Notes under the pieces: model-generated | Seen by the model: only the letters and a program-made list of their open reading frames with translations | Database searches by the model: none | What the model was told of the DNA's origin: nothing | Shown: positions 4,870-54,675 of the stretch, piece by piece | How positions within the stretch are numbered: position 1 is the stretch's first letter | Layout of the letters: every line of letters starts with the position of its first letter | Translations under genes and position numbers: made by a program | Assembly (NCBI RefSeq): GCF_900115065.1 | Contig: NZ_FOVE01000008.1 | Span: forward strand, 1-64,000 | Length of the DNA: 64,000 nucleotides | Source of the DNA: Formivibrio citricus | GTDB lineage: Bacteria > Pseudomonadota > Gammaproteobacteria > Burkholderiales > Chitinibacteraceae | Direction of reading: 5' to 3'

Positions 4870-5778
4870 TTATATTTGATTCGTGTTTTTTGCAAACCAA
4901 TCCATCAAAAACTGGACACACACTCTCAGCCGGGCCGAGTTGGAGAGGCGATGGGGATAAATAGCGGCAACATCGGCATCTTGCCGGTACTCGGGAAGAA
5001 CCCGCACCAGCAGACCGGACTGCAAGTCGCCGCCGACATCCCAGACCGAGCGCAGGAAGATACCGTGCCCCTTTAGCCCCCATTGGTGCACGATTTCGCC
5101 ATTGTTGGATGACATGGCAGCCGATACCTTGACGGTTTCCACCCCGTTTGGCCCGATCATGCGCCATTGGCCAAACGGTTGGTCGCGCTCGCGGATGGGA
5201 ATGCAGCGGTGTTGCGCCAAATCTTCAAGGCATTCCGGTACGCCACGGGTAGCCAGATAGTCTGGCGAGGCGCACAGAACCCGGTAATTGCGGGCCAGTA
5301 CACGGGCAATCAAACTGGGCTGATGTTGCCCCCCTACCCGGATATCCAGGTCAAACCCCTCCCCGATCAAGTCAACCGGGCGATCCAGCAGCTCAAGGTC
5401 AACGCTCAGGGTTGGATACAACAACATCAATTCAGAGAGCGCAGGCGCTAACCGGTTGCGGCCAAAACCGGTACTGGAGGCGATGCGCAACAAGCCGCGC
5501 GGCACCGTCTGGGCGCAGGCGGCGACATCGGACATTTCTTCCACGTCTTCCAGAATTTTTTGCACGCGCAGCAGAATGGCCTCGCCTTCCTGTGTCAGAT
5601 TGACGGTACGCGTCGTGCGCTGGAACAAGCGCACCTGCAGTGCCTGTTCCAGTGCGGCAATACGTTTGCTGACAAACGCCTGCGAAACGCCTTCGCTTTT
5701 GGCCACCGCGGAAAAACTGTTGCTGCGGGCAACCAGACAAAACAGGCGCATATCCTTCAAACCCAGCTCATTTATCAC
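4870..5778 (-). CDS. dmlR: LysR-family regulator, DmlR-like
   Basis: LysR-type transcriptional regulator of 302 residues, transcribed divergently from dmlA, as in E. coli dmlR-dmlA. The N-terminal winged helix-turn-helix (FCLVARSNSFSAVAKSEGVS) is followed by the inducer-binding domain with GLLRIASSTGFGR and the C-terminal AMSSNNGEIVHQWGLKGHGI typical of the DmlR/CrgA subfamily. The best start is the GTG at 5778; a Met at 5751 is possible. By analogy it would activate dmlA in response to D-malate or tartrate. It shares its subfamily with the frameshifted LysR gene near leuC. Subfamily placement is from motif resemblance. Confidence 0.88.
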   Translation of the reverse strand: MINELGLKDMRLFCLVARSNSFSAVAKSEGVSQAFVSKRIAALEQALQVRLFQRTTRTVNLTQEGEAILLRVQKILEDVEEMSDVAACAQTVPRGLLRIASSTGFGRNRLAPALSELMLLYPTLSVDLELLDRPVDLIGEGFDLDIRVGGQHQPSLIARVLARNYRVLCASPDYLATRGVPECLEDLAQHRCIPIRERDQPFGQWRMIGPNGVETVKVSAAMSSNNGEIVHQWGLKGHGIFLRSVWDVGGDLQSGLLVRVLPEYRQDADVAAIYPHRLSNSARLRVCVQFLMDWFAKNTNQI

Positions 5779-5813
5779 GATATGAAATTTCTGTGTTTAC
5801 ATTTTCAGCAATT

Positions 5814-5829
5814 ATAACCAAATCGTTAT
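5814..5829. promoter_or_regulatory. candidate LysR operator in the dmlR-dmlA intergenic region
   Basis: ATAAC and GTTAT form a perfect inverted repeat with a 6-base spacer in the AT-rich gap between the two divergent genes. LysR proteins usually bind such interrupted palindromes near the start of the target gene. The assignment is by position and symmetry only. Confidence 0.35.
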
Positions 5830-5892
5830 CAATTATGATCATGAGACGAAGGAATGAGGCATTTGCCTCCAACCAGACAGAGGGGAAAAGAG

Positions 5893-6972
5893 ATGACCAA
5901 GCACAAGATCGCAGTCATGGCCGGGGACGGCATCGGCAAGGAAGTCATGCCGGAAGGTATGCGGGCTTTAGAGGCGGCGGCAAGCAAATACGGGATCGAA
6001 ATCGAGGCCACACATTTTGACTGGTGCTGCGCTGAATACTATGTCAAACACGGCCGCATGATGCCGGAAGACTGGGCCGAGCAACTCATGGCTTACGAGG
6101 CCATTTTCTTTGGCGCGGTAGGCTGGCCGGACGTGGTGCCGGACCACATTTCGCTGTGGGAATCCCTGCTGGCATTCCGCCGCGGTTTTGACCAGTACAT
6201 CAACCTGCGCCCCGTCCGCCTCATGCCGGGAGTGCCCACTCCCCTTGCCAATCGCAAGGTTGGCGATATCGACATGATGATCGTGCGCGAGAATACCGAA
6301 GGCGAATACACCACCATGGGCGGGCGGATTTTCGATGGCACCGATCGGGAAGTGGTCATCCAGGAAGCCGTGTTCACCCGCACCGGCGTAGATCGCGTAC
6401 TCAAGTATGCTTTTGACCTGGCGATGACCCGTCCGCGAAAGCTCCTGACTTCCGCGACCAAATCCAACGGCCTGGCCGTGAGCATGCCCTACTGGGACGA
6501 GCGCACGACGGAGGTTGCCAAGAATTATCCGGAGGTGCGCTGGAACAAGGAACACATCGATATTCTGACCGCGCGTTTCGTGCTGAATCCGGATCGTTTC
6601 GATGTGGTGGTGGCATCCAACCTGTTTGGAGACATCCTCTCCGATCTGGGGCCGGCCTGCGCGGGAACCATCGGCATTGCCCCCTCGGCCAACATGAACC
6701 CGGAACGGCATTTCCCGTCGCTGTTCGAGCCGGTACACGGCTCTGCCCCCGATATCGCAGGGAAAGGCATTGCCAATCCCATCGCCATGATTTGGTCCGG
6801 CGCGATGATGCTGGATTTCCTTGGTCGTGGCGATGCCCGCTATCGCGCGGCACATGATGCCATTGTTGCTGCTATCGAGTCTGTATTGGTTTCCGGCCCC
6901 AAGACGCCCGATCTGAAGGGCACGGCAAATACTGAAGAGGTAGGGAAGGCAATCGCTTCCGCAATTGGCTGA
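5893..6972 (+). CDS. dmlA: D-malate/tartrate dehydrogenase (decarboxylating)
   Basis: NAD- and metal-dependent beta-decarboxylating dehydrogenase that converts D-malate to pyruvate and CO2 and usually also accepts L-tartrate. The 359 residues align along their whole length with E. coli DmlA: AVMAGDGIGKEVMPEGM at the N terminus, FDQYINLRPVRL, VRENTEGEY, TSATKSNGLAVSMPYWDER, the metal-site SNLFGDILSDLGPA and EPVHGSAPDIAGKGIANP. The start at 5893 follows GGGGAAAAGAG; an upstream in-frame ATG at 5854 adds residues absent from the family. The enzyme is a paralogue of LeuB, which matters because a LeuCD-like pair lies 4 kb downstream without leuB. A hairpin terminator follows. Confidence 0.93.
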   Translation: MTKHKIAVMAGDGIGKEVMPEGMRALEAAASKYGIEIEATHFDWCCAEYYVKHGRMMPEDWAEQLMAYEAIFFGAVGWPDVVPDHISLWESLLAFRRGFDQYINLRPVRLMPGVPTPLANRKVGDIDMMIVRENTEGEYTTMGGRIFDGTDREVVIQEAVFTRTGVDRVLKYAFDLAMTRPRKLLTSATKSNGLAVSMPYWDERTTEVAKNYPEVRWNKEHIDILTARFVLNPDRFDVVVASNLFGDILSDLGPACAGTIGIAPSANMNPERHFPSLFEPVHGSAPDIAGKGIANPIAMIWSGAMMLDFLGRGDARYRAAHDAIVAAIESVLVSGPKTPDLKGTANTEEVGKAIASAIG

Positions 6973-7121: not shown

Positions 7122-7880
7122 TCACACAACAAAGCCCACCAGCATCAAAGCAGCGACCCCAACCATGACACTGCTGAAGGCCATCCTTAAATAGGATGTT
7201 TTGAGTTTGTGCGCTAAAGCAACTCCCCAAGAAACACTAATAACCCCTCCAAGCGCAAGCGGAATACCAGTACCCCAATTGACATAACCAGCTTGCGTAT
7301 AGGCAAACAAAGCGGTTATTGATCCAGGAATAACAAGAGCGAGAGCGGTTCCTTGCGCCTGCGTTTGTTTAAAGCCAAACAGAGAAATCAAGAGCGGGAC
7401 AACGACCAGTCCACCGCCCACGGCAAAAATACCCGACATTATTCCGCTCAACATCCCCAACAATGCATAGTATTTAGCAGACAAGGTTTTGGCAGGGGGT
7501 TCCGAGCCTGATTTTGATCTAGACTGCACTGCGTAATACACCGCCAATCCAAGTAAAAATATTGCAAATGCCTTTTGCAGGTTATCATGGCTAATCCATG
7601 TGGCAATGCGTGCCGCAAAATAAGATGTAATTGTTGCGGATATACACATCGCAAATATTGGCTTGAATCTTATTTCATTTCTTTGGCGATACCTAATAAA
7701 GCCAATCAACACACTAGGAACGATCATGATTAATGTCGTTCCCTGTGCAAGATGTTGGTTCATTCCATACATAAAACCAAGCATGGGGATTGCAATAATT
7801 CCGCCAGCAATCCCCAACATGCCTCCCGTCACACCTAGAAGCAACCCACACGCAAAATCAACAAGCATCTGCCCCAGCAT
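7122..7880 (-). CDS. TauE/SafE-family membrane permease
   Basis: Integral membrane protein of about 252 residues, mostly hydrophobic, with the two-repeat TauE/SafE layout. GVTGGMLGIAGGIIAIPML in the first half is echoed by GMLSGIMSGIFAVGGGLVVVP in the second. The family exports or imports small anions such as sulfite, sulfoacetate or organic acids. The open frame runs far upstream, but the ATG at 7880 sits 7 bases after GAAGGA and gives the usual family length; an ATG at 7886 is too close to that site. It is divergent from a LysR gene at 8155 that probably regulates it. The neighbourhood suggests a dicarboxylate or related anion, which is inference. Confidence 0.88.
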   Translation of the reverse strand: MLGQMLVDFACGLLLGVTGGMLGIAGGIIAIPMLGFMYGMNQHLAQGTTLIMIVPSVLIGFIRYRQRNEIRFKPIFAMCISATITSYFAARIATWISHDNLQKAFAIFLLGLAVYYAVQSRSKSGSEPPAKTLSAKYYALLGMLSGIMSGIFAVGGGLVVVPLLISLFGFKQTQAQGTALALVIPGSITALFAYTQAGYVNWGTGIPLALGGVISVSWGVALAHKLKTSYLRMAFSSVMVGVAALMLVGFVV

Positions 7881-7958
7881 AAACATGTCCTTCAAAAATG
7901 AACCGCCCCACCTGCCGACACAACTTAACCAGTCGGGATAAAGCAAACATCCAGATGT

Positions 7959-8011
7959 TGCGGCACATGCCGCACGCTTCGATCCAGGCCATTTTATCCA
8001 CAGAAAATGGC
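7959..8011. promoter_or_regulatory. two palindromes between TauE and LysR genes
   Basis: TGCGGCA-CA-TGCCGCA (7959-7974) is a perfect 16-base palindrome. GCCATTTT and AAAATGGC (7988-8011) form an 8-base inverted repeat around an 8-base spacer. TTGACA at 8012 could be a -35 box, but no good -10 follows. The 274-base gap between the divergent genes holds nothing else that was recognised. These are candidate operators by position only. Confidence 0.3.
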
Positions 8012-8154
8012 TTGACAATCGCATTCCTCTCAACCACCCTTTCCTTAACGGAAAACCAGCGCGTTTAAAATAGTGCGAGCTCGTTGCATTTTTACGTCGC
8101 ACCGAATATATCCGCTCTTGAATTTTACCAAATTTTATTGGCGCACATTTTGAC

Positions 8155-9069
8155 ATGATCAACCCATTGCATTTCAACCTCCATTCCATTAGAGCATTTT
8201 TATTGGTCGCCGAATCAGGCAGTCTGACCAAGGCAGCAGAAAAATACAACATGACACTCTCCGCGCTAAGCAAAAGAATTGCCGACATGGAACAAACCAT
8301 CGGCTGCGCCTTATTTCTACGTTTGCCTCGCGGATTAGAATTAACCCCGGCAGGAAAAGAACTTTTAAAGCATGCGCGCTCCATCATGGATGCCATAAAC
8401 AGCATGGCAGATGAAATGAGTGATTTTGCTTCTGGGGTACGGGGGCGTATCAGAATTTGGGCAAATACTTCGGCGGTCATTCAGTACCTACCTCATGACC
8501 TTGCAAATTTCTCCAACAAAAACCCGAATATCGGAATTAGTCTTGAGGAAAAGATGGATGAAGAAATTGTCGCTGCAATCAATGAAGGCAAAGCGGATAT
8601 TGGAATCTTGACCGACAACACCTCGACACCAGGGATCGATAAATTTTTTTATCGGCACGATCAGTTAGTCGTTCTTGTCCCCAAAGATCACCCGCTGGCC
8701 TTCCGTTCGAGCATTGAATTTCTGGAAACACTGGATTACGATTTTGTTGGTCTAAATCAAGGCAGCTCTTTGCTCAGGCGATTAATGGATGTCTCCACCG
8801 CACTGGGACGCTCTATAAGAATAAGAATTCAGGTAAGAAGCTTTGACGCGGCTTGCCGAATGATTAGGGCTGGATTTGGAATAGGCATTCTACCGGAAGG
8901 GGCCATTCAATCAGAAATTATGGACAAAAAATTGAATGCGGTCCCTTTGGTCGATACATGGGGACGTAGAACCTTATGGTTGGGCGTCAAGGAAGGCACT
9001 ATGCTTCAGCCGGAAACAAAAAAACTGCTATTACATCTAAGCCGGGAGTCCCCATTGGATTCTTTTTAA
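8155..9069 (+). CDS. LysR-family transcriptional regulator
   Basis: LysR-type regulator of 304 residues. The N-terminal helix-turn-helix reads FLLVAESGSLTKAAEKYNMT, followed by LSALSKRIADMEQTIGCALF. The effector domain has VRGRIRIWANTSAVIQYLP and MIRAGFGIGILPEGAI. It is not in the DmlR subfamily of its neighbours. The ATG at 8155 gives the normal family length. It is divergent from the TauE/SafE permease, whose gene is its most likely target. Its base composition is lower in GC than the flanking enzymes, as is the permease, hinting that the pair arrived together. The co-inducer is unknown. Confidence 0.9.
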   Translation: MINPLHFNLHSIRAFLLVAESGSLTKAAEKYNMTLSALSKRIADMEQTIGCALFLRLPRGLELTPAGKELLKHARSIMDAINSMADEMSDFASGVRGRIRIWANTSAVIQYLPHDLANFSNKNPNIGISLEEKMDEEIVAAINEGKADIGILTDNTSTPGIDKFFYRHDQLVVLVPKDHPLAFRSSIEFLETLDYDFVGLNQGSSLLRRLMDVSTALGRSIRIRIQVRSFDAACRMIRAGFGIGILPEGAIQSEIMDKKLNAVPLVDTWGRRTLWLGVKEGTMLQPETKKLLLHLSRESPLDSF

Positions 9070-45661: not shown

Positions 45662-46783
45662 TTATTGTACCTTGCCGGAAACAAATTTGACCAGATTGGC
45701 AGCCAGATCCCCGTTCGCCGTCAGTCGGACCACCCAGGCTTGCGCATGCGCCTGCAACAAAGGCAGCGCCACCTCAAACGACGGCCATGCCTTGTCCGCG
45801 CTCTCGCCCACGTTCCAGGCCAGCCAGAAATTACGCAAGGACACAGCCGCTTCCGTATCCATCCCGGCAACATAGCGGTCCATGTATGCCGTCAGCTTGT
45901 GGTGGTGCGCTTCGTCGTCCTGCGGATAGATATGCCAGACAAACGGACGGGCAGCCCATTGGGCACGCACGAAGCTGTCCTCACCGCGCACGAAATTGAG
46001 GTCGCAGCTCCACAACAGGCGGTCGTAGTCGTCCTGCGGCAACATCGGCAGGCAAGTCAGCGTCAGCGCCCCGCTCCGGACGGTCTCTCCGGGATTCAAG
46101 CCGGGCGCCGCCAAGGCTTGGCGAACCTGCGGCAACAGACGCCCTTCGGGCAGGAACGCATGCACCGGACGCCCCGCCGCGCTCCAGCCGCGAAGCAACC
46201 CGGCCAGCGCCGGGTTCTCATAGGCGAAAAGCGAAATCGCCAGCGCTCCTTCGTTAACCGGGGCAAAGCGCGAAAGGAAAGCCGCACCATCGGCTGGCGA
46301 CCACTGCGCTCTCGCGGCGCGCATGACCGCCTCGCCTGGCACTCCGCCGGTCCTGCCGGAAAAACCCGGAAAAAAGAAATACTTGGCCAGCCCGGCCTGC
46401 GGTGAAACCAGGCCATGACAGCCCTCCACCCAGTCTTCGGCGGAAAGATATTCCAAGTTGATCCAGACCGGCTTGGCGGCACGCATACGCGCTACGTAAC
46501 CGGGAGGCAACTCGCAGGCAAAAGCCTCGACCACGACATCGGCAGGCTCGGCTTGGGGAAACGGATCGCTCCAGCGGCAAACGATCACGCCCTGGCATGG
46601 CTGCTCATCGAGCGCCGGATCAATCTCCGGCTGGATACGCGCAAAACTTGCCAGATCGTCGACCCACAGCCGGACCAGCAGCCCATGCTCCTGCGCCAAT
46701 TGCCGCGCCAGACGCCAGCAAACGCCGATATCGCCGAAATTGTCGACTACCGTACAGAAAATGTCCCAGCGCCCAATTGACAT
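45662..46783 (-). CDS. earP: EF-P arginine 32 rhamnosyltransferase
   Basis: GT-B glycosyltransferase that attaches rhamnose from dTDP-rhamnose to Arg32 of EF-P. The protein has 373 residues from the ATG at 46783; the frame extends 17 codons further without a ribosome binding site. The N-terminal WDIFCTVVDNFGDIGVCWRL contains the catalytic aspartates, and the C-terminal NFVRGEDSFVRAQWAARPFV and WHIYPQDDEAHHHKL bind the nucleotide sugar. It forms an earP-efp unit. Confidence 0.96.
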   Translation of the reverse strand: MSIGRWDIFCTVVDNFGDIGVCWRLARQLAQEHGLLVRLWVDDLASFARIQPEIDPALDEQPCQGVIVCRWSDPFPQAEPADVVVEAFACELPPGYVARMRAAKPVWINLEYLSAEDWVEGCHGLVSPQAGLAKYFFFPGFSGRTGGVPGEAVMRAARAQWSPADGAAFLSRFAPVNEGALAISLFAYENPALAGLLRGWSAAGRPVHAFLPEGRLLPQVRQALAAPGLNPGETVRSGALTLTCLPMLPQDDYDRLLWSCDLNFVRGEDSFVRAQWAARPFVWHIYPQDDEAHHHKLTAYMDRYVAGMDTEAAVSLRNFWLAWNVGESADKAWPSFEVALPLLQAHAQAWVVRLTANGDLAANLVKFVSGKVQ

Positions 46784-46845
46784 AAATGAAGTCCGATCAA
46801 AACCGATCCCGTGAAGATACCCAAGACGGAGCAAAAATCAATCGT

Positions 46846-48441: not shown

Positions 48442-48754
48442 AATGCCGTTCACTCAAACCAAGTGAGTGACATTTTCTTGGTCAGCGTTGCATGCAGCAC
48501 GCTCCGCCCTAGAAGGCGCCGAGAAGCACAGCAAGACGCGGGAATTCGGCGAGCACTGTTTGAGGCCGCAGGCCGAGTTGCGCAGCCGCCGCGTCTTGCG
48601 AGCATCGCAGGGAACCCCGCAGGGGCGCCGGAGTGGGCTCGCCTTTGGGGTGAAGGGGTATTTGGCGAGACAAATACCCCTTCCTGCCTGCCGGGCGGAA
48701 CCGGCTGTAAATCCCGCGCCGCAGGCGCATGAAAATCCTTAAATGAACGGCATT
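48442..48754. repeat. 313-base element bounded by AATGCCGTTCA inverted repeats
   Basis: AATGCCGTTCA at 48442-48452 and its exact inverse at 48744-48754 bound a stretch without a credible gene. Its left 59 bases recur, inverted, at 28611-28669. An open frame inside starts MTFSWSALHAARSALEG and looks like the spurious peptides that such repeats produce. Repeats occupy nearly all of the 400-base gap between ndh and the poly-Asn gene. Confidence 0.7.
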
Positions 48755-48783: not shown

Positions 48784-49242
48784 TCACCCGTTGTTGTTAT
48801 TATTGTTATTGTTGTTGTTATTATTGTTGTTATTGTTGCTGTTCCCGCCCTGGTCGCGCTTGTTCTGCCTGGCCTTGGCATCACCGTCGGCATACGCCGT
48901 TGCCGCTGCACCCAGCGCCAGCCCGCCAGCCCCCAGCATGACGGTTTGCCCGGTCAGGCAGTACATCTGCGGATCGATTGCCGAGATTTTCAGCCCGTCG
49001 CACCAGACGGTCTTGTCCTGCGTTGCCTCCGCGGCAGCATGGCTCGTCAACACCCGGCCATTGCGGTAATAGAACAGCTTGTTCTGGTTGTAGACCACGT
49101 AATCCCGCCCGGCCTTGCCTTCGGCAAAACGGCTGACGATATCTTCTTCCACCTGCGTGCGCGCTTGGCCGTCTGCCCAATGGCACGCATCCAGAAAACG
49201 CTCGACGGTAAACGCGATTTTTTCAAGTTCCTGGGCGTTCAT
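48784..49242 (-). CDS. small protein with 16-residue poly-asparagine tail, candidate radical SAM substrate
   Basis: Protein of 152 residues, family not recognised. The ATG at 49242 lies after GGAGGATGCCG and overlaps the radical SAM stop by 20 bases. Residues 1-95 are a folded-looking, Cys-containing domain (ending near WCDGLKISAIDPQMYCLTGQ). Then comes a Gly/Ala-rich hydrophobic segment (MLGAGGLALGAAATAYA), a charged linker (DGDAKARQNKRDQGG) and the tail Asn-Ser-Asn16-Gly. The tail uses 10 AAC and 6 AAT codons in irregular order. It is last in a four-gene unit. A leader-plus-core layout for a modified peptide is an attractive inference. Confidence 0.8.
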   Translation of the reverse strand: MNAQELEKIAFTVERFLDACHWADGQARTQVEEDIVSRFAEGKAGRDYVVYNQNKLFYYRNGRVLTSHAAAEATQDKTVWCDGLKISAIDPQMYCLTGQTVMLGAGGLALGAAATAYADGDAKARQNKRDQGGNSNNNNNNNNNNNNNNNNG

Positions 49243-51055
49243 CCGGCATCCTCCGCGGCAGGTAATGGAATTCAAGGTTCTGGAACGGCAGGTTCACTGC
49301 CTGGATATGGTAGAACGCGTTCGCTTTCTGCTTCTGGTAATGATACTCGCGCAGGTAAAGCGTGGTCACGAACAGGTTGTTCAGTACACCTTCGCGGTAC
49401 AAACCGGCATGCAGATCGACAATGCCGGACAGATCAACCATCACGAATTCCGGGCCGAAGCGGTCGCTGGGCATGAGGCAATTGGCATAGAGCTGGTAGG
49501 TGAACAGGTGCTCCTGCTTGGTGCGGCGCTCGTCGCCATATACCACCGGCGTATCGCGCAGCATCTGCAGATACAGCGTATTGCGGATCGGCTCGTCGCA
49601 TCCGGCTTCGAACACCGACTTGCGCACGTGCAGCACCAGCCGCTCGCCCGCCGCCAGCGTGTACCAAGTTGCGTGCGGCTTCAGCAACTGCGAAGTCAGC
49701 GCCACCGTCTCATTGGGCAACTCCAGAATGAAGGCATCGTCGCTGTAGAGCGTCTGCAAAACCGGGTCGGACTCGATCAGGGATTGCAGCGCGTTCTTGT
49801 CCTCGTAAAGATCGCGCGGCAGCACGACGGCGGGCGCCGGTTTCGGCAGCGGAATCTCGCCGGAGACGACCAGATGCGGATGCATGCCCTGGGCATACTC
49901 GCGCGCATACGCCTGCTGCCCGTCCGGACTGGCGGGCGGGAAGCTTGCCGGGTTGTCGCGGTAGATCGCTTTCTGCAACTCGCAGGTATAGGAGCGCCCG
50001 CAGCCGCTTTGCCGTTTCACCACCGGGCAACCGGTCCGGCACAGGTGCAGGTATTCGCAGTGGCGGCAAGCTTCGTCGAAACCCTGTTCCTGATGCGCGA
50101 GACAAATCTTGCGCGCGCCGGCATCGAGCACCTCCCCGACCGGATCGGTCAGCAGGTTGCCGTAATGGAATTCCTCGAGCCCCTGCCCGCGCACGCAGGA
50201 ATACACCGCACCATCGCTTTGCAGCAGGTAGAAGCGTTCGCCGCAGTTGAAGGCATTGGTGCAGTAACTCGGCTTGAATTCGTCGAACCAGTTGCGTCGC
50301 AGCCCGTCTTCGAGTTCGGTGCCGGTGAATTCGCGGTTCAGCGCCTCGTAGAGCGCCAGTTGCAGGTCCGGCGGCACGGGCTGCAACACGTCGCCGCCCT
50401 TGGCCGCGCTGTTCAGCCCCGAGGCAAAGGCGAACATGATGTTGAAGTTGTTCATGTCGAAACCCAGCTCGCGGTGGATGAACCAGATGTCGTCGATGAA
50501 CGCAGGAATGTCCGCCAGGTGTTCCCGGCACAGGGTGGCCGAAATTTTCTTGGCGTGCGGATATTTCGCCAGCAGCCGGAGGTTGTCGATGGCCCGGTCC
50601 AGCCACGGCTTGCCGCCGCGCGTGGTGCGGTATTGTGCGTGCATGGCCAGCGGCAGGTCGATGCTGGCGCTGATCGAGACCTTGTGCCGGTCAAAGAGGT
50701 CATACAGCGGCGCAAACGTGTAGAGATTGGTCTTGATGTGCGGCGCAGACTTCTTGTGGCCCAACGCGGCAATCGCATCGAAGTGCGCGAGGTAATGCCT
50801 GCGGATGATCGTAAAGAGTTCGTCGAGCACTGCTGCCGGCAGCGTCGTGACTTCGCCGCCGTGCAACGAGACGTTGAACGCCAGTACGCCAGCTTCGTCG
50901 AGCCGGGCCAGCGCCGTGCGCAGCGTGGCCGCCGCGCGCGCAGCATCCACCTTGAGCGCGGCTTGCGTGGTCTGCTCGCCCAGATAGCAGTAGCGGCAAC
51001 TGAGATTGCAGCACAACGTCGGAACGTACAACAGATGGATCGGGCGCAACGCCAT
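49223..51055 (-). CDS. radical SAM/SPASM protein with long C-terminal extension
   Basis: Protein of 610 residues from the ATG at 51055, which shares its A with the stop of the gene before (a TTG one codon earlier is also possible). Residues 1-200 are a radical SAM domain with the 4Fe-4S motif LCCNLSCRYCYLGEQ and LHGGE. A SPASM region follows (about 265-370: CTNAFNCGERFYLL, DGAVYSCVRG, then CRHCEYLHLCRTGCP and CGRSYTCEL) for extra clusters. The last 220 residues are not recognised. SPASM proteins modify peptides or proteins. The poly-Asn protein encoded next is the obvious candidate substrate. Confidence 0.88.
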   Translation of the reverse strand: MALRPIHLLYVPTLCCNLSCRYCYLGEQTTQAALKVDAARAAATLRTALARLDEAGVLAFNVSLHGGEVTTLPAAVLDELFTIIRRHYLAHFDAIAALGHKKSAPHIKTNLYTFAPLYDLFDRHKVSISASIDLPLAMHAQYRTTRGGKPWLDRAIDNLRLLAKYPHAKKISATLCREHLADIPAFIDDIWFIHRELGFDMNNFNIMFAFASGLNSAAKGGDVLQPVPPDLQLALYEALNREFTGTELEDGLRRNWFDEFKPSYCTNAFNCGERFYLLQSDGAVYSCVRGQGLEEFHYGNLLTDPVGEVLDAGARKICLAHQEQGFDEACRHCEYLHLCRTGCPVVKRQSGCGRSYTCELQKAIYRDNPASFPPASPDGQQAYAREYAQGMHPHLVVSGEIPLPKPAPAVVLPRDLYEDKNALQSLIESDPVLQTLYSDDAFILELPNETVALTSQLLKPHATWYTLAAGERLVLHVRKSVFEAGCDEPIRNTLYLQMLRDTPVVYGDERRTKQEHLFTYQLYANCLMPSDRFGPEFVMVDLSGIVDLHAGLYREGVLNNLFVTTLYLREYHYQKQKANAFYHIQAVNLPFQNLEFHYLPRRMPDERPGT

Positions 51056-51534
51056 CAACTCCGCCCTTGGCCGCTGGTCACGATTTCAACCTGCGGCGCC
51101 GTTGCGCTGACCTTGGCGACGATCTTTTCCGCCACCTTGAAGAACTTGGCAGCCGTGTTGGCGGCAACCTTGTGCGCCTTGCGCGCATTGGTCGGGAAGT
51201 TCTTCTGCTCGATCAAGAGCGAGCGACCGGAAACGGTCTGTAGCAACAGTGTGCCTTTCTCATATTCGAGCGTGATCCGGGCCAGGTTGTGATAGTAAAT
51301 AATCGAAGCACCGCAGATCAAATAGCGCGGCCCGATGTAAAGCTTGGCCGCATTCAGCCTGCGGATGGCGATGATGATGAGCGGGACCAGCACCAGCATG
51401 CCAAATGGGAAAAAACGCACGACGCAAAACAGCACAAGCACCGCAATTGCCAGGTATTTCAGCGCCCTCATTGCCGTGAACGAACCCGCTTCGCGGTGTC
51501 TGTACTTGAAGACTGCGAAGGTCCTGTTTTCCAT
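51055..51534 (-). CDS. membrane protein with two helices and PH-like domain
   Basis: Protein of 159 residues from the ATG at 51534. After a basic N terminus (FAVFKYRHREAG) two adjacent membrane helices form a hairpin (ALKYLAIAVLVLFCVVRFFP and GMLVLVPLIIIAIRRL). A cytoplasmic region follows that looks like a bacterial PH domain (LYIGPRYLICGASIIYYHNL, then ARITLEYEKGTLLLQTVSG) and a helical tail. The stop TGA overlaps the radical SAM start in a TGATG, so the two are coupled. The function is unknown; a membrane scaffold for the modification system is possible. Confidence 0.75.
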   Translation of the reverse strand: MENRTFAVFKYRHREAGSFTAMRALKYLAIAVLVLFCVVRFFPFGMLVLVPLIIIAIRRLNAAKLYIGPRYLICGASIIYYHNLARITLEYEKGTLLLQTVSGRSLLIEQKNFPTNARKAHKVAANTAAKFFKVAEKIVAKVSATAPQVEIVTSGQGRS

Positions 51535-51557
51535 GCGGCTCCTTGAGTTGACCATCG

Positions 51558-52322
51558 TCATACCGGAAGATAATGGGCGCGGATCCGCTTCAGTTCGCCG
51601 GATGTATCAAGCTTCTTCAGTGCTGCGTTGATGCGCTTGACGATTGCCGGCGAAGCTTTTCTGGAGAACGCGGCATGCATGCCCCCGACCTGGAAGCGGA
51701 TTGGCAAAAACTTGACCTGATCCTGGATTCCCAAGGCGGCGATGTCCTCTACCATATTGAAATCGGTGCCATACACGAAACGCCCGCGTCCGGCGATCAG
51801 CTTGCGCAGGTTGGCCACGCTGGAATTGGAATTATCGTCGATGATGAGCCCACCCAGCGATTTCAGGTACTCGGGCTGCGCAGCCTTGGCCGCCGTAATC
51901 ACGATGCCATCCCTACCCAGCTTGCGTACGTCATCCCAGTTGTTCACCACAACCGGGTCATCCGCACGTACCACCAACACCTGCGCGCTCGGATAAAGAA
52001 TGGTATCGGACAGGATAAAGGTCGCCATGCGCCGCTCGTTCTTCATCAGCCCCCAAGCCACATCGATTTCACCGGCTTCGAGATCGGTCTCGATTCTGGC
52101 CATCGACCCCTTTCTCTCCAGGCCGATGAATTTGAGTTGCGGGTCAATTCTTTCTATGGCGCGGATGATCTCAAGACAGATACCCGGTTTGACCGGATTC
52201 TCCCCGTTGAATTTTCCGCGATAGCCTTCCTGCGCAATCGTCCTGACCAACAGAGGCTGGGCGCTAACCAAGCCTGCCAAAACAAAAAACAGCGCACCGG
52301 CAATTACCTGAGTCAATCGCAT
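51558..52322 (-). CDS. periplasmic substrate-binding protein (SBP_bac_3 type)
   Basis: Protein of 254 residues with a signal peptide (VIAGALFFVLAGLVSA) and the fold of family 3 binding proteins: CLEIIRAIERIDPQLKFIGL, RIETDLEAGEIDVAWGLMKN, RMATFILSDTILYPSAQVLV, and a C-terminal PAIVKRINAALKKLDTSGEL. Such proteins bind amino acids or similar small molecules, but no ABC permease or ATPase is adjacent, so it is an orphan. It is first in the four-gene radical SAM unit, 23 bases before the membrane protein. GRRM radical SAM systems also carry an orphan binding protein. Confidence 0.88.
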   Translation of the reverse strand: MRLTQVIAGALFFVLAGLVSAQPLLVRTIAQEGYRGKFNGENPVKPGICLEIIRAIERIDPQLKFIGLERKGSMARIETDLEAGEIDVAWGLMKNERRMATFILSDTILYPSAQVLVVRADDPVVVNNWDDVRKLGRDGIVITAAKAAQPEYLKSLGGLIIDDNSNSSVANLRKLIAGRGRFVYGTDFNMVEDIAALGIQDQVKFLPIRFQVGGMHAAFSRKASPAIVKRINAALKKLDTSGELKRIRAHYLPV

Positions 52323-52454: not shown

Positions 52455-54233
52455 TCATCGATCGGGCTCGAACAGTACCGAACCGATACAGGCATTCGGG
52501 CGGAATGCGGCAATGCCTTTCAGCCCCGCCCGCCACGCCTCAAAATAAAGCACTTCGAATTCAGCAAACGGATAATTCGCCGGGATATTGACCGTCTTGG
52601 AAATCCCGGCATCGACATAGGGCTGAACCGCAGCAACCATGCGCATGTGATCAAGCGCTTGCAACTCCAGCGCAGAAACAAAAGCCGGCGGCAGGTTCTG
52701 CGTATCACCCCCTTGGGCGCTATACGCGCGCCAGGCATGGTCTTCCACCTTGAATTCAAGAACGCGCCCATCCGCCATGCGCTTGTTGCGCTTGTAACTC
52801 CAGGCATAAGCCGGCTCAATGCCATTGGAGGCATTGTCGGCAAAGGCGAGGCTGATCGTTCCGGTCGGCGCGATGCAGGTCAGATGGCTGTTGCGCAAAC
52901 CATGGCGACGAATCCGGTCCTTGATGCTAGCGGGCAGCCGGTTCGCGCTGTGATCGCCCGAGAGCATGCCTTCGGCGGAAAACAGCGGAAAAGCGCCTTT
53001 TTCGCGCGCCACTTCCACACTGCTTAGATAAGCCTCGTTGCGTAAAGTTTCGGCAATGCGAGCGGCAACCCCCCGCCCTTTCTCGCTGTCGTAGCGCAGG
53101 CCAAGCATGATGAGCGCATCGCCCAGCCCCAAAAACCCCAGCCCAAGCCGGCGCTTTTGCAAAGCTTCTTGTCGTTGTTGCGGCAGTGGCCAGCGCGTTA
53201 CGTCGTAGACATTGTCGAGCATCCGCACCGCAACGCGGGCGAGCTGCCCCAACGCGGAAAAATCAAACGTGGCATCGGCAGCAAACGGCCGACGCACCAA
53301 CCAAGTCAGATTGATCGACGCCAGATCGCAGCAGGCGTAGTCGGGCAGCGGCTGCTCGCCGCAGGGATTGGTCGCAGAAATATGTTCGCAATAACCCAGG
53401 TTGTTGTCGCGGTTGATCTTGTCCAGAAACAGGATTCCGGGCTCGGCATGATCGTAGGCCGAGGCCATGATCTGCGTCCACAAATCGCGGGCACGCAGCG
53501 TGCGGTAGCACCAGCGTCCGTCCGGGCGCCGGCTGGCCTGCGGGTACACCAGCAGGTCGGGCTCTGCGACATGGACCAGATCCCACAGCGCATCGTCGGC
53601 CACCGCCTGCATGAAGCGGTCCGTCGCCCCCACCGAAAGATTGAAATTGCGAAACTCGCCCTTGTCCTTGGCATGGACAAAAGCCTCGATATCGGGATGA
53701 TCGCAATCAAGCACGCCCATCTGCGCACCGCGCCGTGCGCCCGCCGATTCAATGACATCGCAGGAAGCATCGAACAGATGCATAAACGAGACCGGCCCCG
53801 ATGCGAGTGTTCCCGTTCCCTTGACCTTCGCGCCAGCGGGCCGCAGCGCGGAAAAGTTGTAGCCGACCCCTCCACCGCGGCGCATGGTTTCTGCCGCCTC
53901 GCGCAGAGACTGATAGATGCTGTCGATCGAATCACCCACCGGCTGCACGAAACAGTTGAGCAGCGTGGCATCAAGCGCAACGCCAGCTGCACTGTTGATT
54001 CTGCCGCCGGGAATCAACCCGCCCCGCAGCGCATGGTAAAAGCGGGGCTGCCAGTACGAAACATCGCGCTCTACGGCAGCCAACGCAGCTGCCACGCGCA
54101 GACGCTGCGCATCCACGTTCTCTTCGCCTTCCAGCGCATAACGTTCACGAAAGACTTCCTGCGAGATTTGCTGCGGCTCCAGATCCACGGGCGGGCTCCA
54201 CCATGAACATGGTTCCATCATAGTTGACCCCAT
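52455..54233 (-). CDS. nrdJ: adenosylcobalamin-dependent (class II) ribonucleotide reductase, short form
   Basis: Reduces ribonucleotides to deoxyribonucleotides with B12, without needing oxygen. About 592 residues; ATG codons at 54233, 54221 and 54218 are all possible. The N-terminal redox Cys is in LNCFVQPVGDSID, AAETMRRGGGVGYNFS follows, and the active-site loop NPCGEQPLPDYACCDLASIN has the thiyl Cys and Glu. IAPTGTISLAFADNASNGIE and AWRAGLKGIAAFRPN are typical. The protein stops at CIGSVLFEPDR, where longer NrdJ proteins go on for hundreds of residues with Cys motifs, so the C-terminal redox tail is missing. It is divergent from a YkgJ gene. Confidence 0.92.
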   Translation of the reverse strand: MGSTMMEPCSWWSPPVDLEPQQISQEVFRERYALEGEENVDAQRLRVAAALAAVERDVSYWQPRFYHALRGGLIPGGRINSAAGVALDATLLNCFVQPVGDSIDSIYQSLREAAETMRRGGGVGYNFSALRPAGAKVKGTGTLASGPVSFMHLFDASCDVIESAGARRGAQMGVLDCDHPDIEAFVHAKDKGEFRNFNLSVGATDRFMQAVADDALWDLVHVAEPDLLVYPQASRRPDGRWCYRTLRARDLWTQIMASAYDHAEPGILFLDKINRDNNLGYCEHISATNPCGEQPLPDYACCDLASINLTWLVRRPFAADATFDFSALGQLARVAVRMLDNVYDVTRWPLPQQRQEALQKRRLGLGFLGLGDALIMLGLRYDSEKGRGVAARIAETLRNEAYLSSVEVAREKGAFPLFSAEGMLSGDHSANRLPASIKDRIRRHGLRNSHLTCIAPTGTISLAFADNASNGIEPAYAWSYKRNKRMADGRVLEFKVEDHAWRAYSAQGGDTQNLPPAFVSALELQALDHMRMVAAVQPYVDAGISKTVNIPANYPFAEFEVLYFEAWRAGLKGIAAFRPNACIGSVLFEPDR

Positions 54234-54282
54234 CGTAATGCCGCCGGATTCGGTACAATGCGCACCAGCAGAAGGCAAGCTC

Positions 54283-54675
54283 ATGAAGAAAGCAATCATC
54301 CACCGCTCCGACCTCGACCGCACCGAAACCTGGCTCAAGTACCGCGCCGGCCTGTGCGCCACCTGCCGCGCCACCTGCTGCACCATGCCGGTCGAAGTAA
54401 AGCAGCCGGATCTGGTCCGCCTTGAACTCATCGATGAATTCGAGCTGGGAGAGGAACCCAAGCAGATCGCCAAGCGCCTGCAAAAAGCCGGGCTGATCGA
54501 GCACTTCAATTTCCGCAACAGCATCTTCACGCTGGCACGCCGGGCCAATGGCGACTGTCGCTATCTGGACAAGGAAACGCGGCGCTGCACGGTCTACGAA
54601 AAACGCCCCAACACCTGCCGCAACCACCCGCAAATAGGGCCGAGGCCGGGCTACTGCGCTTATCAATGCAAATAG
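54283..54675 (+). CDS. YkgJ-family cysteine cluster protein
   Basis: Protein of 130 residues from the ATG at 54283, after AAGG. The Cys pattern is typical of the YkgJ/CxxCxxCC group: GLCATCRATCCTMPVEV near residue 25, and GDCRYLDKETRRCTVYEKRP followed by NTCRNHPQI near the C terminus. These proteins probably bind a zinc or iron-sulphur cluster; their function is unknown. A -10-like TACAAT lies 27 bases before the start. The partner across the divergent promoter is nrdJ. Confidence 0.88.
   Translation: MKKAIIHRSDLDRTETWLKYRAGLCATCRATCCTMPVEVKQPDLVRLELIDEFELGEEPKQIAKRLQKAGLIEHFNFRNSIFTLARRANGDCRYLDKETRRCTVYEKRPNTCRNHPQIGPRPGYCAYQCK

Follow-up and report, generated by a model that had tools for sequence, protein, structure and literature searches.

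The described systems closest to the locus considered here are built around radical S-adenosylmethionine (SAM) enzymes with a SPASM region. One is anSME, the anaerobic sulfatase-maturating enzyme (4k36-4k39; TIGR03942), another is GRRM, in which a SPASM maturase, GrrM/OscB (TIGR04261), is found beside a low-complexity protein, and a further group is formed by the cyclophane maturases DynA, AmcB, YhhB, XyeB, and FxsB, which are SPASM peptide maturases. One paper also describes the epimerases PoyD and EpeE, acting along the core with no need for a leader, the PoyD substrates having a large folded leader, and the ranthipeptide NxxC system, in which Asn C-beta is attacked, a precedent for C-H abstraction from Asn (PMC8326336). 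Here we analyze a stretch of 64,000 nucleotides from Formivibrio citricus (contig NZ_FOVE01000008.1, positions 1 to 64,000; the window), whose minus strand encodes a radical SAM/SPASM enzyme, P0001, and, next to it, a small partner protein, P0002, with a run of Asn residues at its C-terminus. In bacteria, and independently in phages, a C-terminal Asn run accompanies enzymes of this kind. Judging from sequence comparisons, P0001 probably represents an undescribed radical SAM/SPASM subfamily with the C-terminal Asn run as its substrate.

A scan of named genomes returned 120 stretches encoding relatives of the enzyme, and the best 77 of these 120 loci were examined. They comprise a homologous set of 49 loci (L008-L056; 40-72% identity), matched along the enzyme unless cut by a contig end, and a control set of 28 generic radical SAM loci (L057-L084; 22-32% identity). 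An Asn run is encoded in a neighboring gene in all 49 homologous loci, this gene following the enzyme gene in 48 and preceding it in L050, with seven consecutive Asn reached in 48 of them (L012 has six), and with the run placed at the end of the protein or within a few residues of it, L024 excepted. A run of seven Asn is found in none of the 28 generic loci, in any frame. The original prediction had proposed, as a test, that a low-complexity partner should always stand beside homologues of the enzyme, and this is the case in 49 of 49 loci and in all five readable loci found later (L170-L174, of which L174 is cut inside the run); a sixth later copy of the enzyme (G783; L167, L168) stops less than 80 bases from a contig end, making its neighbor unreadable. 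In having a precursor-like gene beside the maturase in each of the 49 loci, the system resembles those of the ribosomally synthesized and post-translationally modified peptides (RiPPs) in the wide sense.

The enzyme is rare and patchy, being encoded in three of 43 genomes of the family, in three of 399 genomes of the order, and in one of 299 genomes of a phylum sample, this one being the window's own genome, as well as in two of 250 genomes of the family of L052 and in six of 145 genomes of the family of L053. DNA encoding Asn6-Gly-stop is present in exactly three of the 399 order genomes, the same three that encode the enzyme, and at the cassette, a coincidence of about 1 in 10 million for randomly drawn genomes, these genomes being related. 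Likewise, 34 of the 36 matches to the AAY7 pattern in five divergent genomes are at the cassette. An extra match to the partner profile in the 299 phylum genomes (L097) was dropped, as its Asn run lies inside another protein, presumably one like the transcription terminator Rho. The hosts of the 49 loci are Beta- and Gammaproteobacteria, Geobacteraceae and their relatives, Desulfobacterales, Myxococcota, Clostridia, and Bacilli, many of them represented by metagenome bins. A quick tree, into which nine of the 28 generic loci were taken, sets the homologous enzymes apart from the nine generic rows and intermixes the phyla, a pattern that fits transfer of the gene, the root and the placement of the phage rows being unsure.

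The second line of evidence is presented by phages of the Campylobacter type. Full-length homologues of the enzyme (32.6% identity) are encoded by Campylobacter phage CAM-P21 and by a plasmid record of C. coli, with no small poly-Asn protein at either locus; instead, the tail fibre, encoded two genes upstream of the enzyme, ends in STNNNNY. Scans of viral contigs added 12 distinct enzyme loci, for a total of 14, and in all 14 the fibre ends in two to five Asn followed by at most one residue (NNNNY in nine, NNF in three, NNS and NNNNN in one each), the fewest being the two Asn of GNNF, with Thr, Ser, Gly, or Cys before the run. The N-terminal fibre domain used as the query is present in 10 of the 14, the other four fibres being truncated or of a different type. 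No fibre ends in Asn among the 20 loci that possess the fibre domain, have no detectable enzyme, and are readable for at least 2.4 kb past the fibre, and fibre ends of several types occur in both sets. Not counted were L130 and L131, which have open ends, L129, L136, L141, and L149, which extend less than 1.5 kb past the fibre and of which none ends in Asn, and L125-L127, L133, and L134, which repeat contigs already counted. The original claim of a maturase acting on the poly-Asn protein is thus backed both by the neighbor counts and by this independent prophage test. Since the Asn run is the sole element visibly common to the bacterial partner and the phage fibre, and mainly for this reason, we call it the substrate: it is very probably what the enzyme modifies, and the N-terminal domain of the bacterial partner, as the phage sequences suggest, may not be needed in principle.

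The genes between the fibre and the enzyme add to this comparison. A gene for a 211-residue protein (L006:5351-5986) occupies the same place in L085-L094, L119, and L123. In the five annotated enzyme-less loci (L151-L155) the gene after the fibre encodes about 167 residues, named DUF4376 in three of them, and the 211-residue protein of CAM-P21 has no similarity to the one DUF4376 protein of an enzyme-less prophage with which it was compared. As different genes follow the fibre in the presence and in the absence of the enzyme, the fibre end, the 211-residue protein gene, and the enzyme gene seem to be exchanged as one module, in which the 211-residue protein may be a fibre-tip chaperone or a partner of the enzyme. 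Two papers note radical SAM genes in virulent Campylobacter phages, in passages that draw no link to the fibres (PMC2853527, PMC3322345). A four-row alignment of the bacterial enzymes detected no relatives in the viral contigs. Asn6-Gly-stop DNA is found there in 14 stretches, nine of which are eight-residue frames reading KNNNNNNG, and none of these 14 contigs is among the enzyme-scan matches.

In the window, four open reading frames are present on the minus strand at 48784-52322, in a host genome of 3.07 Mb (44 contigs, 99.5% complete) that was itself scanned. The features are as follows:

48784..49242, minus strand: partner (putative substrate) protein P0002, 152 residues; open reading frame, with profile relatives in 48 of 49 loci and that of L053 recognized by its tail
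48790..48837, minus strand: Asn16 run, from the translation; Gly and stop codons at 48784-48789
48889..48948, minus strand: hydrophobic linker segment of P0002, residues 99-118, read from the sequence, with counterparts in 38 of the 49 partners at the threshold used
48958..49242, minus strand: folded N-terminal domain of P0002, residues 1-95, from the AlphaFold2 model
49223..51055, minus strand: radical SAM/SPASM enzyme P0001, 610 residues; open reading frame, profiles, alignment, and structure model
50987..51010, minus strand: CxxxCxxC radical SAM motif of P0001 (C16, C20, C23), in 44 of 45 alignment rows, the 45th being cut at its start
49982..50263, minus strand: SPASM region of P0001 with eight invariant Cys (C265-C358), in 45 of 45 rows; TIGR04085 at 39.4 bits versus 27
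49226..49939, minus strand: C-terminal domain of P0001, residues 373-610, with many invariant residues, such as N492, R511, K513, H516, Y571-Y573, Y582, and H583
51055..51534, minus strand, likely start 51534: two-helix membrane protein, open reading frame to 51561; a relative is encoded upstream of the enzyme gene in 40 of the 49 loci
51558..52322, minus strand: family 3 binding protein, 254 residues (SBP_bac_3); adjoins the cassette and is not a conserved member (0 of 49 loci)

The prediction of one tight four-gene unit on the minus strand holds for all four reading frames and for their short or overlapping junctions and fails for the binding protein, which is outside the conserved unit; where four junctions had been counted, four genes give three internal ones. 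These are a gap of 23 bases between the binding protein and the membrane protein (an overlap of 4 bases if the first ATG is used), an overlap of 1 base between the membrane protein and the enzyme, and an overlap of 20 bases between the enzyme and the partner.

The small protein ends, as predicted, in Asn16, its C-terminus reading Ser-Asn16-Gly-stop. All 10 matches to the AAY7 pattern in the host genome fall inside 48790-48837, and this confinement argues that the tail is more than chance. Among the partners of the 49 loci, the run varies in length from 6 to 27 residues, and their tails contain 664 Asn codons (403 AAC and 261 AAT). With an ordinary AAT share (39.3%, versus 38.3% for the Asn codons of the enzyme genes) and with fewer identical neighboring codons than expected on shuffling (274 versus 316), the tails are not fresh slippage repeats, and by its codons the Asn tail is selected as protein. 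In the partner alignment (A2, the window partner and 46 of the 49; L024, L029, and L041 left out), mean identity is 35% for the N-terminal domains, 32% for the linkers, and 90% for the tails, this last figure being inflated by the aligner. Of the 49 partners, 38 have a hydrophobic linker above the threshold used; those below it include every divergent partner and a few others. The AlphaFold2 model of P0002 has a predicted local distance difference test (pLDDT) score of 86-96 per block over residues 1-90, and the N-terminal domain has no match above Z 3.7 among solved structures, which does not establish a new fold.

As to the enzyme, no known maturase family fits P0001. TIGR04085 (SPASM; 39.4 bits, cut-off 27) is the only one among the NCBIfam models shown to reach its cut-off, and the Pfam models Radical_SAM (22.4, cut-off 29.5) and SPASM (16.3, cut-off 21.5) both remain below theirs. 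P0001 possesses the defining elements of a radical SAM/SPASM protein, CxxxCxxC and the Cys pattern for two auxiliary sites, and the 11 cluster Cys (three radical SAM, eight SPASM) are kept in 44-45 of the 45 rows of alignment A3, which is composed of the window enzyme, 39 of the 49 bacterial enzymes, and five phage enzymes. This alignment omits L021, L024, L025, L028, L031, L039, L043, L045, L054, and L055, as well as near-identical phage copies and L093, L119, and L123, and the ranges of L035 and L042 are shortened. Beyond the 11 ligands it contains no further invariant Cys; C486 is a Cys in 37 of 45 rows, not in the phage rows. The invariant residues of the C-terminal domain are common to bacterial and phage rows, and we infer that this domain may grip the Asn tail. 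Searches of defence libraries gave a single weak match, to viperin (16.1 bits).

The enzyme is nearest in fold to anSME. In the AlphaFold2 model (pLDDT 91), residues 4-373 share with anSME the radical SAM and SPASM fold and the same set of cluster Cys (Z 28.6, root-mean-square deviation 3.4, 339 residues aligned; Foldseek E 2.6e-14), the region past about residue 373 being barely probed by this comparison. P0001 differs from anSME in scoring far under the TIGR03942 cut-off (71.2 versus 349.45 bits), so that it is not a sulfatase maturase, the case originally named as a refuting one, in possessing the extra C-terminal domain, and in having an Asn-tailed neighbor rather than a sulfatase. The position of what we take to be the catalytic Asp after a SPASM Cys (D277 in anSMEcpe) is V, H, or P in the family, with R289 and Q291 invariant in the 45 rows; since the family does not keep this general base, the chemistry of the enzyme is not that of anSME. 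GRRM is resembled in that a SPASM maturase stands by a low-complexity protein, with a binding protein adjacent in the window; as the original prediction had it for the maturase and its target, the cassette is different, with an Asn run in place of Gly-rich repeats, a binding protein that is not conserved, and a maturase below the TIGR04261 cut-off (58.9 versus 310). The cyclophane maturases give weak whole-profile matches in 44-45 of the 45 members, whereas no model reaches its cut-off for P0001 (DynA 68.4, cut-off 450; AmcB 67.7, cut-off 425), and the bacterial Asn tails lack aromatic residues. The epimerases are set apart by the lack of a conserved donor Cys in the window family and by matches of the EpeE structures at Z of 15.0 or less, and the ranthipeptide system by most window-family tails lacking a Cys partner.

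We propose that the enzyme works as follows. SAM would be cleaved at the first cluster, CxxxCxxC, as is usual in the family, and the 5'-deoxyadenosyl radical would take a hydrogen from an Asn carbon, C-beta being more likely than C-alpha, with the second electron passed to the auxiliary clusters. The resulting oxidized Asn could be alpha,beta-dehydro-Asn, although a C-N ring or cross-link that joins adjacent Asn would be the more attractive product. In the bacterial partners, neither the Asn run nor what follows it contains an aromatic residue, except for the extension of L024; the phage fibre tails, unlike these, do end in Tyr or Phe. Since the bacterial tails generally offer neither Cys nor aromatic residues, we consider thioethers and cyclophanes unlikely, and neighboring Asn remain as the partners. 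In bacteria, the enzyme would act on the tail of the small partner, which its hydrophobic linker and the two-helix protein probably keep at the membrane, and in the Campylobacter-type phages it would act on the tip of the tail fibre. We consider the chances of oxidation at Asn to be about even.

A different outcome at the same residues would be epimerization, the enzyme converting Asn to D-Asn along the run in the manner of PoyD (polytheonamide), so that L- and D-residues would be mixed in the tail. Such an enzyme would be suited to working iteratively along a run whose length varies, next to a folded N-terminal domain, no cross-link partner would be required, and epimerases act without a leader, according to the source cited above, which also holds that the known radical SAM epimerases need a conserved hydrogen-donor Cys (PMC8326336). 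The absence of an invariant Cys beyond the 11 cluster ligands, C486 included, stands against it, although a different donor is conceivable. Both auxiliary sites being kept and a donor Cys being absent, two-electron oxidation is favored over epimerization, and we regard the latter as unlikely.

Alternatively, the Asn run could be only a docking handle, with the modified residue elsewhere, such as the C-terminal residue or the Ser or Cys that precedes the run. A Ser stands directly ahead of the Asn in 42 of 49 partners and a Cys in three, and the fold is nearest to anSME, which oxidizes Ser or Cys. The preceding residue varies, however, individual partners having Thr, Gln, or Phe there and phage fibres Thr, Ser, Gly, or Cys, and the residue that follows is Gly in 42 of 49, Arg, His, or none in most Firmicutes seen, and across the family Gly, Arg, His, Tyr, Phe, Ser, or none, so that the Asn run alone is constant; the anSME Asp position is not kept, either. 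We therefore find a mere docking role improbable. That the run is an accidental, functionless low-complexity tail, as its variable length among relatives might suggest, is next to impossible given its presence in 49 of 49 loci of several phyla, its uniqueness in the window genome, the phage pattern, and codons with mixed third positions and unbroken first and second positions.

Several observations weigh against our main reading, a radical SAM/SPASM subfamily that oxidizes a C-terminal Asn run. Many of the bacterial loci are close relatives, as are the phage loci, and neither the bacterial counts nor the 14 and 20 are counts of independent events. The reading frame looks broken in two of the 14 phage enzymes (L093, L123), the sequences of L029 and L041 are masked inside the Asn run, and the Asn13 run of L024 is not terminal, 42 residues following it. 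Divergent loci lack both the two-helix protein known from the other bacterial loci and the hydrophobic linker, and the family does not keep the anSME general base. In L024 (a Giesbergeria bin, 7788-8336) the 42 residues are unrelated, and may result from a frame error or a lost stop.

Turning to the neighbors, the membrane protein has 168 residues from the first ATG (51055-51561), and its homologues align from the Met of MENRT (51055-51534). Of the nine loci without it, three are at or near a contig end (L041, L051, L055), five are divergent (L046, L047, L050, L052, L053), and one, L016, is unexplained; no Pfam family is found in more than two of 19 members (alignment A4, P0003 and 18 of the 40 relatives). 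The binding protein, which matches Pfam SBP_bac_3 (44 bits, cut-off 26.4) and had been predicted to be part of the system, was rejected as a member, as none of the 49 loci encodes a relative that passes the threshold applied, and no GRRM model is among its three NCBIfam matches at E up to 1. In L046 (Desulfobacterales), a secreted-looking protein (5356-6123), by eye like a family 3 binding protein, is encoded about 2 kb past the poly-Asn gene, with no match to the window binding protein at that threshold. By BLASTP clustering, no other gene family keeps a constant position except among close relatives, with no profile search made for a protease or exporter. In view of this, we infer that the protein, once modified, remains uncut and acts at the membrane.

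Some neighbors are shared more narrowly. In two gammaproteobacterial loci (L050:5136-5981, L051:2235-3041), a membrane protein of 268-281 residues with no Pfam match is encoded beside the poly-Asn gene, by eye presumably GIDE-like. In Firmicutes (L052, L053, L170, L172, L173), a zinc-ribbon-like protein of 334-345 residues follows the poly-Asn gene, its zinc-ribbon matches being below the Pfam cut-offs in both loci scanned. A leucine-rich-repeat protein is encoded ahead of the enzyme in L052, and similar genes occur in later loci. In the window, a perfect 12-base inverted repeat with a 6-base loop (AAGGGGTATTTG ... CAAATACCCCTT) is found at 48653-48682, about 100 bases past the cassette, with no T run behind it. 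The flanking reading frames are, we assume, an EarP-type rhamnosyltransferase-like gene (45662-46834) and an adenosylcobalamin-dependent ribonucleotide reductase-like gene (52455-54548).

Among the papers listed on poly-Asn or Asn-rich proteins or SPASM substrates in connection with radical SAM enzymes or bacteria, and on radical SAM enzymes in connection with tail fibres, none describes this system, a weak negative, as subscription papers were mostly not covered. To our knowledge, no radical SAM modification of a phage tail fibre has been known earlier, and this one, if true, would be the first. Overall, we see an even case for and against the oligo-Asn tail being a substrate code for one enzyme family in two settings of unrelated kind, bacterial membrane-associated proteins and phage fibre tips, with the oxidized poly-Asn polymer serving as a binding or structural surface, and with the fibre tip, the 211-residue accessory protein, and the enzyme making up an exchangeable adhesin module. 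If this is true, a homopolymer of a single ordinary amino acid, carried by unrelated proteins, would be the core substrate of this maturase, and phages would be altering their tail-fibre tips chemically. The rule by which the enzyme and the Asn tail are present together is clean enough for a direct chemical test.

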